Shown piece by piece: positions 16,758-49,564 of a DNA stretch of 64,000 bases. Source of the DNA: Pseudoduganella albidiflava. Its GTDB lineage: Bacteria > Pseudomonadota > Gammaproteobacteria > Burkholderiales > Burkholderiaceae_D. Within the stretch, counting starts at the first letter, position 1; each line of letters begins with the position of its first letter. The translations under genes were made by a program, and so were the position numbers. The stretch spans positions 4,526,001 through 4,590,000 of the forward strand of contig NZ_CP036401.1 in NCBI RefSeq assembly GCF_004322755.1, given 5' to 3'. The notes under the pieces were generated by a model, which saw only the letters and a list, made by a program, of their open reading frames with translations, did no database searches and had not been told where the DNA came from.

Positions 16758-16884
16758 TCGAATCCTCCCGTCGAATGGTCCATAAGAGCACCGGCGGGAG
16801 GATGAAAAGACGGTCGAGGCGGGGCCGGGACGGCAGGCCGCTTCGACAGCGGCTTCCCGTCACCCCGGGGAATGGTGCTGACTT

Positions 16885-17045
16885 GCTTGGGCCGGTATTC
16901 TGGCTCGCCGTCATTCTTCATCCGCGCCTTCCCGCGAGCGATCGCAGTGGCTAACAGGCGGAATCCGTCAGGCTTACAGCAGCGGGGGCTGCACCGGAAT
17001 GGCCGCGCGTGGCGGCTTCACCGGTTTCCCGTTTAACGCTTTCCC
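16885..17045 (-). promoter_or_regulatory. Cobalamin (B12) riboswitch
   Basis: Read on the minus strand, the region begins with GGGAAACCGGTGAAGCCGCC, continues with CAGCCCCCGCTGCTGTAA, has the B12-box core GCCACTG (16945-16951), and ends with GAGCCAGAATACCGGCC (16891-16907). These are the conserved blocks of the cobalamin riboswitch in the right order. It occupies most of the 402-base leader of cbiM, ending about 130 bases before its start codon. Binding of adenosylcobalamin should repress the whole 13-gene operon. Confidence 0.93.
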
Positions 17046-17159
17046 CGGAACGGGAAGAGCGCACCCAAGCGCGCATGGTAACCGAAATGCAATGCCGTGG
17101 CATAGCAATTTTGCTGCGTCGCCATGCCGGCCCGGTGATTGGCCGGGGGCGCCATGGCG

Positions 17160-43164: not shown

Positions 43165-43297
43165 AATTCCGGGGTCAGGAAGGAATACTGGCATGCATGC
43201 CAGCACCGTTGCGCAGGCGCGAAGCATGCTTCGCGAAACCCCTGCTACACCCCGGCGGGTCTGACCCCGGCCTTTCGCTGCTGGGGTGAATGCATGC
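43165..43297. repeat. REP-like palindromic element, copy 3, split by nested palindromes
   Basis: The left part AATTCCGGGGTCAGG (43165-43179) and right part GGCGGGTCTGACCCCGG (43254-43270) with the tail CTGGGGTGAATGCATGC (43281-43297) match the elements at 4817 and 59836. Between them lie about 75 extra bases carrying two perfect 16-bp palindromes, CTGGCATGCATGCCAG (43188-43203) and GCGAAGCATGCTTCGC (43219-43234). It appears to be one REP-like element invaded by, or fused with, another. Confidence 0.65.
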
Positions 43298-43339
43298 GCT
43301 TGCAATGTGCTGGATGACGCGCAACGCAACGGTACCGAC

Positions 43340-44007
43340 CCGCAGGGGTGGCCGTTTTCGTTTATTCATGGCGGAGAAATGCAGAAGTGAGCGAACGAGC
43401 GCCAGCGCGGAGCGCCGGCGAAGCCGCTGCGTAGCAGCGACAAATGGGCGATTCGGAGAGCCCCGCGCTGGTAAGCGCGGGTCTTCGAATCCCACCCTCT
43501 CCGTCCGAATAAACAAAAACGGCCTTCCGCAGGGAAGGCCGTTTTTATTGCACAGGGGGCGCGGAGCGCCAAGAATGGGCGATTCGGAGAGCCTAGCGCC
43601 TGCAGGCGCGTCGTCTTCGAATCCCACCCTCTCCGTCCGAATGAACAAAAACGGCCTTCCGCAGGGAAGGCCGTTTTCGTTTATTCATGGCGGAGAAATG
43701 CAGAAGTGAGCGAACGAGCGCCAGCGCGGAGCGCCGGCGAAGCCGCTGCGTAGCAGCGACAAATGGGCGATTCGGAGAGCCTAGCGCCTGCAGGCGCGTC
43801 GCCTTCGAATCCCACCCTCTCCGTCCGAATAAACAAAAACGGCCTTCCGCAGGGAAGGCCGTTTTTATTGCACAGGGGGCGCGGAGCGCCAAGAATGGGC
43901 GATTCGGAGAGCCTAGCGCCTGCAGGCGCGTCGTCTTCGAATCCCACCCTCTCCGTCCGAATAAACAAAAACGGCCTTCCGCAGGGAAGGCCGTTTTTGT
44001 TTATTCA
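43340..44007. repeat. Array 1 of tRNA-Ser-like fragments and hairpin terminators
   Basis: Four related 60-61 base units lie at 43451-43510, 43582-43642, 43770-43830 and 43902-43962. Each starts ATTCGGAGAG, has a GC hairpin in the middle, then TTCGAATCCCACCCTCTCCG and ends TCCGAAT. The outer parts match the acceptor stem and T-arm of tRNA-Ser; the D-arm and anticodon arm are missing. Units alternate with perfect hairpins of the type AAAAACGGCCTTCC-GCAG-GGAAGGCCGTTTTT. The whole set also forms a 319/320-base higher-order repeat (43361, 43680, 44000). Orientation is opposite to the intact tRNA that follows. No protein-coding gene lies here. Confidence 0.85.
43967..43998 (-). terminator. Bidirectional hairpin terminator after tRNA-Ser copy 1
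   Basis: Perfect 14-bp stem with loop GCAG and flanking A and T runs (AAAAACGGCCTTCC / GGAAGGCCGTTTTT). It lies 10 bases downstream of the tRNA 3' end on the minus strand and could act in both directions. Identical copies lie at 43515-43546 and 43835-43866, and a near copy at 43647-43676. Confidence 0.88.
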
Positions 44008-44097
44008 TGGCGGAGAGGGTGGGATTCGAACCCACGGATGGGTTGCCCCATCGCTTGATTTCGAGTCAAGTACATTCGACCACTCTGCCACCTCTCC
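44008..44097 (-). tRNA. tRNA-Ser (anticodon CGA), copy 1
   Basis: 90 bases with encoded CCA. Minus-strand acceptor stem GGAGAGG/CCTCTCC, D-arm GCAGAGTGGTCGAATGTAC, anticodon loop CTCGAAA within TTGA/TCAAG, a long variable arm around GATGGGGCAACCCATC, and T-arm GTGGGTTCGAATCCCAC. The long variable arm and CGA anticodon identify serine (UCG codons). It is identical to the second copy at 48031-48120. Confidence 0.97.
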
Positions 44098-44409
44098 TGG
44101 GTGGTACATGCAAAACGCTGACTCCGCGTTCGACATTCTTGAGCCACACAAGGCTTGCTGCAACTCGAGAGGCATGATTCTATATCAGCATCGATGTTGC
44201 GTCAAATCAAAGAGAGTGCCTGTGCTTGCGGCTGCAAAAGCAGCAGCCATCAATGCGAATACTTCTCATTGTTATTTGAACAAGGGCGGTTTACACTGCC
44301 GTCACCTGCTTCCACTACCCGCTCCAGCCACGGCCACCAACCAACGGTGCCCTCGCCAACGGCGCCACTCCTGCGCGCCACGGGCGAAGCCAGGCTCGAG
44401 GAGAAACGC
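44098..44409. other. Intergenic region before the ECF sigma gene
   Basis: 312 bases between tRNA-Ser copy 1 and the sigma factor gene. Apart from the Fur-box candidate at 44252-44270 I see no gene here. An in-frame extension of the sigma ORF runs through it, but it has no conserved-looking domain and is Cys/Ser-rich, so I treat it as untranslated. Confidence 0.6.
44252..44270. promoter_or_regulatory. Candidate Fur box upstream of the ECF sigma factor
   Basis: AATGCGAATACTTCTCATT is a 19-bp imperfect inverted repeat (AATGCG / CTCATT arms) close to the Fur consensus GATAATGATAATCATTATC in its spacing and AT-rich character. It lies about 140 bases before the sigma factor start. Iron-repressed control of a FecI-like sigma factor beside a siderophore receptor would be expected. 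Confidence 0.5.
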
Positions 44410-47420: not shown

Positions 47421-47421
47421 G

Positions 47422-48030
47422 ATTCGGAGAGCCTGGCACTGGTAAGCGCGGGTCTTCGAATCCCACCCTCTCCGTCCGAATAAAAAAAACGGCCTTCCGC
47501 AGGGAAGGCTGTTTTCGTTTATTCATGGCGGAGAGATGCAGAAGTGGGGAACGAGCGCTAGCGCGGAGCGCCGGCGAAGCCGCTGCGAAGCAGCGGCAAA
47601 TGGGCGATTCGGAGAGCCTAGCGCTGGTAAGCGCGGGTCTTCGAATCCCACCCTCTCCGTCCGAATAAAAAAAAACGGCCACCCGCAGCGGTGGCCGTTT
47701 TGATGGAGCAGGCGGCGCGGAGCGCCAAAGAATGGGCGATTCGGAGAGCCCCGCGCTGGTAAGCGCGGGTCTTCGAATCCCACCCTCTCCGTCCGAATAA
47801 AAAAAACGGCCACCCGCAGGGGTGGCCGTTTTACTTTATTCATGGCGGAGAGGGTGCAGAAGTCAGGGAACGAGCGCCAGCGCAAAGCGCCGGCGAAGCC
47901 GCTGCGAAGCAGCGGCAAATGGGCGATTCGGAGAGCCCCGCGCTGGTAAGCGCGGGTCTTCGAATCCCACCCTCTCCGTCCGAATAAAAAAAAACGGCCA
48001 CCCGCAGGGGTGGCCGTTTTTCTTTATTCA
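47422..48030. repeat. Array 2 of tRNA-Ser-like fragments and hairpin terminators
   Basis: Four units of the same family as array 1 lie at 47422-47481, 47607-47666, 47739-47798 and 47926-47985, each ATTCGGAGAG, a GC hairpin (mostly GCGCTGGTAAGCGCGGG), TTCGAATCCCACCCTCTCCG, TCCGAAT. They alternate with hairpins at about 47486-47516, 47670-47702, 47801-47833 and 47990-48021. Truncated 3' ends of tRNA-Ser (ATTCATGGCGGAGAG) lie at 47520 and 47839. The array precedes tRNA-Ser copy 2 in the same relation as array 1 precedes copy 1. Confidence 0.85.
47990..48021 (-). terminator. Bidirectional hairpin terminator after tRNA-Ser copy 2
   Basis: Perfect 14-bp stem with loop GCAG: AAAAACGGCCACCC / GGGTGGCCGTTTTT. 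It is the same hairpin as after tRNA copy 1 but with CACCC/GGGTG in place of CTTCC/GGAAG, so both arms have changed together. It lies 10 bases past the tRNA 3' end. Confidence 0.88.
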
Positions 48031-48120
48031 TGGCGGAGAGGGTGGGATTCGAACCCACGGATGGGTTGCCCCATCGCTTGATTTCGAGTCAAGTACATTC
48101 GACCACTCTGCCACCTCTCC
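48031..48120 (-). tRNA. tRNA-Ser (anticodon CGA), copy 2
   Basis: Identical over all 90 bases to the copy at 44008-44097, including encoded CCA, CGA anticodon and the long variable arm. It lies 85 bases downstream of the serS stop on the same strand, so synthetase and cognate tRNA genes are neighbours. This copy is probably the ancestral one, since serS is core; that is inference. Confidence 0.97.

Positions 48121-48205: not shown

Positions 48206-49564
<1,359 letters not shown>

Follow-up and report, generated by a model that had tools for sequence, protein, structure and literature searches.

The four repeated units beside a tRNA-Ser(CGA) gene in the window (the whole stretch of DNA that was analysed, 64,000 nucleotides) are copies of a hairpin-rich module that is real and widespread at tRNA-Ser genes of related bacteria. 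On balance, the array probably arose by tandem amplification of a palindromic DNA module of Oxalobacteraceae tRNA-Ser genes, which is kept by template switching. Template switching would be the process that acts here, islands would be carriers of the modules, and the module's hairpins A–C would have no selected role, with a function at the DNA level being possible. A literature search found no paper describing the module.

On the + strand, the four units lie within positions 43450–43962 and have a length of 61–62 nt each, spanning GATTCGG to TCCGAAT (Table 1). The preliminary description had placed them beside the tRNA-Ser gene and inverted to it, which was confirmed with the tRNA on the - strand. 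Behind each unit, which consists of GATTCGGAG, a hairpin, CTTCGAATCCCACCCTCTCCG, and TCCGAAT, lies an extended palindrome with the capacity to act as a terminator. In the last unit, a stretch of 20 nt repeats the 3' end of the tRNA in inverted orientation without a mismatch (43936–43955 versus 44011–44030). Hairpins follow all units, as had been described; the last is 100% complementary over 22 bp, the arms of the other three are 91–94% complementary over 17–22 nt, and the T-run behind the second is short (TTTTCG). The outer pairing ATTCGG...CCGAAT also holds at this locus, but in a wider set of 119 units (see below) TTCGGA:TCCGAA is complete in just 35. The first array repeats in tandem as a composite of two units per ~320-bp period, and its head-to-tail copies (214 bp at 99% and 140 bp at 94% identity, spacing 319–320) have the high identity of a tandemly amplified repeat. 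Repeated duplication was, with this 320-bp period, among the closest of the earlier suggestions; debris private to the strain was rejected, as the same module occurs across related genera. A second array of four units, which lies within 47421–48030 and completes the eight units counted previously, adjoins a second tRNA-Ser(CGA) gene, and between the two tRNA genes lie this array, a sigma-70-like factor, and a TonB receptor. Open reading frames cross the arrays on both strands (43175–43968) and may be spurious repeat-protein predictions (e.g., RTERVGFED... peptides).

Table 1. Positions of the arrays, tRNA genes, and related features in the window, and loci of the sister module.
Feature	Position or locus	Strand	Remarks
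Array far end: half terminator palindrome and long spacer with hairpins A, B	43340–43449	+	
Unit 1	43450–43510	+	
Terminator palindrome after unit 1	43507–43549	.	94% complementary
Unit 2	43581–43642	+	
Terminator palindrome after unit 2	43639–43686	.	91% complementary
Long spacer: truncated tRNA 3'-end copy (TGGCGGAGA) and hairpins A, B	43687–43768	+	
Unit 3	43769–43830	+	
Terminator palindrome after unit 3	43827–43869	.	94% complementary
Short spacer, small hairpin CGGAGCGCC...AATGGGC	43870–43900	+	
Unit 4: GATTCGGAG, hairpin C, CTTCGAATC, inverted tRNA 3' end	43901–43962	+	
Terminator palindrome T, common to tRNA and unit 4	43959–44006	.	Arms 22 nt, 100% complementary; hairpin class with G.U bias on tRNA strand
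tRNA-Ser(CGA)	44008–44097	-	ARAGORN; Rfam RF00005, 60.1 bits; 3' end copied inverted in units
Second array, unit 1	47421–47481	+	
Second array, unit 2	47606–47666	+	
Second array, unit 3	47738–47798	+	
Second array, unit 4	47925–47985	+	
Second tRNA-Ser(CGA)	48031–48120	-	Downstream of serS (48206–49501, -)
Sister module	L193, L191 (behind tRNA-Asp, own genome); L246, L251, L260, L265, L273, L275; L034, L252, L253, L258		

The same genome carries three units beside tRNA-Ser(GCT) and one beside tRNA-Ser(GGA), and no unit was found at tRNA-Ser(TGA) by an inverted-copy score and inspection of the flank. With the fourth unit and its hairpin as query, 11 units in three arrays (query included) were matched with E-values of 1.1e-20 to 1.3e-55. 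All 11 covariance-model matches in this genome and 11 of the 13 exact core matches are units at tRNA-Ser genes; no T-loop half was found near the other two exact matches or near the 17 that were fetched from 35 one-mismatch matches. The inverted-copy score, calculated for 83 distinct tRNA loci (identical loci collapsed, and one locus with only 13 nt of flank), reached 18, 18, 18, and 14 of 20 at four of the five tRNA-Ser loci, 11 at tRNA-Ser(TGA), and at most 13 at every other tRNA. The value of 14 barely exceeds this background, but the unit concerned is nonetheless clear in the sequence. The score missed modules beside tRNA-Asp that are split by hairpin D (described below) and were found by inspection, and it can miss others.

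The preliminary description had proposed a search of related genomes for units beside tRNA-Ser and had argued that the units are not pure debris. Such units were found in five genera of the Oxalobacteraceae with arms that stay paired while their sequences change, which bears out the argument. A nucleotide search with the last unit and its terminator had matches in 33 of 60 genomes (31 of the 36 of the own genus, own genome included, and two of the 24 outside it), some of them merely to a tRNA 3' end and terminator. In a collection of 84,980 species with one genome apiece, 79 stretches matched the pattern GGGCGATTCGGA-N(18-45)-CTTCGAATC exactly; 76 of them were named Massilia, Duganella, Pseudoduganella, Rugamonas, Janthinobacterium, or Oxalobacteraceae, and the remaining three came from elsewhere and had no tRNA-Ser. 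For 67 of the 89 units in these stretches, a tRNA-Ser is encoded on the other strand no more than 300 nt away (27 GCT, 16 CGA, 15 TGA, and 9 GGA), and for none of the 89 is a non-Ser tRNA the nearest tRNA on that side. Inspection of thirteen loci with such units, together with this neighbour analysis, showed that the other 22 comprise chance matches, units inside arrays, units near the end of the fetched DNA, and units that adjoin a degenerate tRNA or the remnant of a tRNA-Ser. From the own genome and its relatives, 119 units remained after duplicates were removed; they had been collected with a text pattern in which most of the lower-stem sequence is predetermined. Units with N in the flanks or with short flanks and the chance loci L089, L108, and L125 were excluded from the unit sets. 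A tRNA-Ser lies within 800 nt of 100 of these units, 83 of which have it within 150 nt and mostly at 56–111 nt.

A covariance model built from 21 units detected modules in at least 18 of 116 genomes and 6 of 44 genera of the wider family, a lower bound given that 34 candidates per genome were scored with strict filters. Among 31 genomes (own included), the model found modules in 15, all of the own genus; 42 of its 52 matches there lie beside a tRNA-Ser, and the other 10, with the exception of L358, lie near a tRNA-Ser or tRNA-Ser remnant. The 99 tRNA-Ser genes of 19 own-genus genomes (the own genome and 18 of the 30 relatives searched with the model) comprise 30 with a module, three with a sister form of it, five with a partial one (the inverted copy alone by the pattern used, some being masked or diverged), and 61 with none, among which are upstream genes in tandem tRNA pairs as well as some apparent island insertions. 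The module therefore is dispensable. No adjoining module was found at 10 tRNA-Ser genes fetched from the genomes G002, G006, and G009, and G006 holds one elsewhere that is cut short. At the module-less loci L301, L313, L329, L339, L352, and L233 (behind tRNA-Ser(TGA)), another common palindrome, TTGCGGAA...TTCCGCAA, lies ~100–150 nt behind the tRNA. A known Rfam family was rejected for the units, as the 23 matches listed for 43280–44110 were all sub-threshold besides the tRNA (sX4 with 32 bits versus 70, ncS011 with 24.5 versus 48, and microRNA hairpin models on both strands). A viral origin was rejected as well: the three matching IMG/VR contigs each carry a module beside a tRNA-Ser remnant and were read as ends of integrated elements.

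Outward from the tRNA gene, the complete module consists of hairpin T, an inverted copy of the acceptor and T-arm 3' strand, hairpin C, a constant stretch with TGGGC and CARNT, hairpin B, and hairpin A. At many GGA and TGA loci, an extra hairpin D interrupts the inverted tRNA copy. Hairpin T is a palindrome with A/T runs at both ends and T-runs on both strands; hairpins A, B, C, and D were found by inspection to have no T-runs. Hairpin C is enclosed by the inverted T-loop octamers GATTCGGA...TTCGAATC as lower stem, in which the T-loop letters of the unit pair with the conserved GATTCGGA. This stem retains a single G.U in 111 of the 119 units, located on the unit strand, and its full pairing otherwise is no independent result because the rest of the stem is fixed by the search pattern. 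The arms of hairpins B and C vary between genomes yet remain complementary (87 and 81 distinct forms), and 1690 of 1812 positions (~93%) in 230 distinct A, B, and C hairpins are Watson–Crick pairs. TGGGC-GATTCGGA is conserved, while the adjoining hairpins B and A change freely.

The copied part of the module follows the gene beside it. In 91 of 100 units, the tetranucleotide behind TTCGAATC (CCAC, TCAC, or CCCC) is that of the isoacceptor next to the unit. A sister module is situated behind the last gene of two tRNA-Asp clusters of the own genome, and each follows the T-arm of its own gene (GAGTCCC with ACTCG:CGAGT, and GAGCCCC with GCTCG:CGAGC); in one cluster, a direct copy of the 3' end and another terminator extend the chain. 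The sister form, which has a GCRGGATGT hairpin, was also found behind tRNA-Asp(GTC) or tRNA-Ser(CGA) in some relatives. Fold-back template switching would be expected to give such alternating inverted and direct copies with turns at hairpins. In this process, the nascent strand would fold back at the terminator palindrome during replication, copy the tRNA 3' end in reverse, and switch back at the T-loop palindrome; repeats of such events would produce the alternating chain and keep its arms complementary. Template switching is reported to be able to create and maintain perfect hairpins (PMC8794818). The likeness to the cases described there lies in reverse-complement copies that create and repair perfect stems, but those cases concern RNA genes with reconstructed ancestral histories, whereas here a family of modules beside tRNA genes is involved. 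Hairpin C sequences of different isoacceptors in one genome resemble each other somewhat more (0.82, 26 pairs) than those of the same isoacceptor in different genomes (0.77, 870 pairs, a value that could be raised by genome records duplicating one genome), which points to exchange between loci. Recombination between modules would homogenise hairpin C within a genome and may also have amplified the array in this strain.

Several observations stand against this explanation. For hairpins A and B, likeness within genomes (0.62) does not exceed that between genomes (0.63). Repair of the arms should have removed the fixed G.U of the GATTCGGA:TTCGAATC stem, and thus some constraint acts on this stem; repair alone also gives no account of the conserved TGGGC-GATTCGGA. 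No template-switch event was observed directly, and the persistence of the module across genera is explained more simply by selection than by neutrality. A strict link to tRNA-Ser and tRNA-Asp does not fit one relative (L037), where a tmRNA gene (1687–2048, -) has as its neighbour a similar inverted unit at 1510 that carries GAATCGGAGAG instead of GATTCGGAGAG. A module whose arms seem to be rewritten from the adjoining tRNA offers a natural experiment on how template switching builds and maintains hairpins. Its Watson–Crick arms, having no strand preference, could by covariation analysis alone be misread as an RNA gene.

Tests of tRNA-likeness did not support the units as mini-tRNAs. A five-pair T-stem closing the T-loop, the mark of a tRNA-like acceptor-T domain, was present in none of the 119 units, which have at most three of the five pairs and only 0–1 pairs in 95 cases. 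Residue 53, a G in tRNA, is a C in 116 of the 119, and in 100 units it lies opposite the G of GATTCGGAG. The units went unrecognised by ARAGORN and by Rfam at its cut-off, which reported no tRNA in the window besides the two intact ones. An acceptor-like pairing with 6–7 of 7 pairs is possible in 51 of the 119 units by a lenient count (the best of several candidate 7-mers, with nine units lacking a candidate), and its 5' strand hardly tracks the isoacceptor. The 5' GGAGAG had been regarded as retained from the adjacent tRNA, but much the same letters occur beside isoacceptors with other acceptor stems. A tRNA-like decoy is not supported, on the grounds of the incomplete T-stem and the changed residue 53.

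A hairpin selected as RNA tolerates G.U on the transcribed strand, which is seen as A.C on the other strand. With a stem finder that treats G.U and A.C alike, and with each distinct hairpin counted once, T hairpins contain 24 A.C versus 4 G.U on the unit strand (p = 1.8e-4). Wobble thus is tolerated on the tRNA strand, and this A.C excess indicates that T acts on that strand. Hairpins A, B, and C together have 29 A.C and 24 G.U (p = 0.58) and no strand bias; as the units share descent, both p-values are guides only. Within the limits of this shared descent, T serves as a positive control, and the negative result for hairpins A–C is therefore informative, although the lower stem with its one fixed G.U stands against it. 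Judged from these substitutions, T is the only part with an RNA-level signature and is best explained as a hairpin that probably works as the terminator of the tRNA. In the query locus, a terminator consensus scan listed one of the four hairpins on the + strand and none on the - strand (2 sites versus 1.8 in shuffles), the T-runs there being paired with A-runs.

The palindrome T, with its T-runs on both strands and its selection on the tRNA strand, and the position of the module between tRNA and flank would agree with a selected role in insulating transcription, in which a series of hairpins behind a strongly expressed tRNA-Ser blocks read-through in either direction. This is improbable: hairpins A–D have no T-runs and A–C no strand bias, the tRNA 3'-end copy and the conserved GATTCGGA would be left unexplained, and among the 83 tRNA loci of the own genome modules were seen just at tRNA-Ser and, with few flanks inspected, at tRNA-Asp.

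Promoter-like sites within 120 nt upstream were found for 5 of 99 elements (shuffles 2.35) versus 58 of 129 tRNA-Ser genes (shuffles 4.2), the scan of the elements excluding the 58 nt that hold hairpins A and B. When ~270 nt upstream of the 99 elements were scanned, 9 had such a site on the unit strand (shuffles 5.5) and 14 on the opposite strand (shuffles 5.35); none was found on the + strand of the query locus. The upstream promoter signal is close to background. It is unlikely that the module is a convergent gene whose transcript ends at the common terminator and, as a small structured RNA made up of the three hairpins A–C and a tRNA-like 3' end, targets seryl-tRNA synthetase, mRNAs, or the processing of tRNA. 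Such a gene would fit the convergent orientation with a bidirectional hairpin in common, the G.U of the lower stem on the unit strand, and the slight excess of promoter-like sites over shuffles, as well as the two-sided changes in 8 of 20 predicted pairs of a 21-sequence alignment, which affect mainly hairpin B. The promoter signal is weak beside the tRNA-Ser genes as positive control, however, and the lack of wobble bias in A–C, the never complete T-stem, and the tRNA-Ser genes from which the module is missing (61 of 99, and all 10 fetched from the three genomes named above) also speak against it. The tRNA-like small RNA or decoy proposed in the preliminary description is not supported on these points either.

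Modules also occur at the borders of inserted genes. Two nearly identical modules flank three Lamassu genes (LmuA, LmuB, LmuC) at L353, two flank an rve-type transposase and Gabija genes at L354, and two flank an 11-kb stretch of oxidoreductase, ABC, two-component, and hydrolase genes at L355, where no defence system was detected in seven proteins tested, save generic ABC-ATPase matches of one of them. At L356, tRNA-Ser(TGA) and a displaced module are separated by an ietAS pair, and among the named and viral loci DRT3a/b (L110) and ietAS (L277) adjoin displaced modules; proteins tested from L095, L103, L146, and L276 had no defence match, and L083, L098, L101, and L104 were covered by one protein each and Pfam only. 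Tyrosine integrases are encoded beside displaced modules at L083 (the same place as L361) and L095. Truncated modules near tRNA-Ser are broken at different places (L357 and L360), and at L358 the module is cut short and no tRNA was seen. A short piece of a tRNA forms the end of several displaced modules, of a tRNA-Ser in the case of L361 (two units) and L359 (one unit), which is the outcome expected if elements integrate in the ordinary way into tRNA 3' ends or anticodon loops. These arrangements were read as islands that bring modules or push them aside; by integrating in tRNA-Ser genes, islands would displace, and perhaps duplicate, the module. Of the mobile tRNA-derived elements considered in the preliminary description, the tRNA derivation comes closest, but mobility seems to stem from integrated islands and not from the unit. 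As the repeat marks the tRNA-Ser genes of a large bacterial group, it is a handle for finding defence islands.

The same loci could be taken to mean that a recombinase recognises the folded module and that tRNA-Ser with modules is a hotspot for (often defence) cassettes, loosely like attC arrays. The module–cargo–module intervals at L353 and L354, the ietAS and DRT3 genes near displaced modules, the existence of cargo-free arrays, and two unpaired bases often present after GATTCGGA in hairpin C by inspection are compatible with such a site, which is nevertheless distinctly unlikely. Displaced modules with tRNA remnants and tyrosine integrases at two such loci resemble ordinary integration, the L355 interval is devoid of a defence system in the proteins tested, no crossover inside hairpin C was seen, and the breaks at L357 and L360 do not coincide. 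Moreover, tRNA loci are already known hotspots for defence islands (PMC10121019). The extended form of this idea, in which the modules are a fold-back, structure-recognised docking system with compact defence cassettes gained and lost between them and the arrays in the window are emptied sites, is decidedly improbable.

The module resembles several known systems in part. Integron attC sites are likewise structured, sequence-variable hairpins with unpaired bases in arrays, but the units are tied to tRNA-Ser, and only generic phage-integrase domains were found beside two displaced modules. The attB/attP sites of islands also involve tRNA 3' ends, and islands at the same places displace modules; att copies are direct repeats of the tRNA end, whereas the module copy is inverted and lies beside an intact tRNA also where no island is seen. 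Like REP and BIME elements, the module is non-coding, hairpin-rich, and repeated, and with a hairpin C homogenised within genomes it might be regarded as an extragenic palindrome moved by a dedicated transposase. This is highly unlikely: the module is bound to tRNA-Ser (the sister form to tRNA-Asp) and partly copied from the adjoining tRNA, and instead of being dispersed over many intergenic sites, its model matches cluster at tRNA-Ser (11 of 11 in the own genome, 42 of 52 in the 31 genomes). The tyrT repeat of Escherichia coli, or rtT RNA (RF00391), consists of tandem repeats behind a tRNA gene that each contain ~20 nt of the tRNA 3' end near a terminator, have the orientation of the tRNA, and are part of its transcript. 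The module shares the tandem repetition behind a tRNA and the 3'-end copy near a terminator. Its copies, however, are not direct copies in the tRNA transcript but inverted, hairpin-enclosed, and located beside all four tRNA-Ser isoacceptors, and rtT had no match in the window at the cut-off nor up to an E-value of 1 in 43280–44110. Apart from the arrays, the window contains a cobalamin riboswitch at 16873–17083 on the - strand (122 bits).
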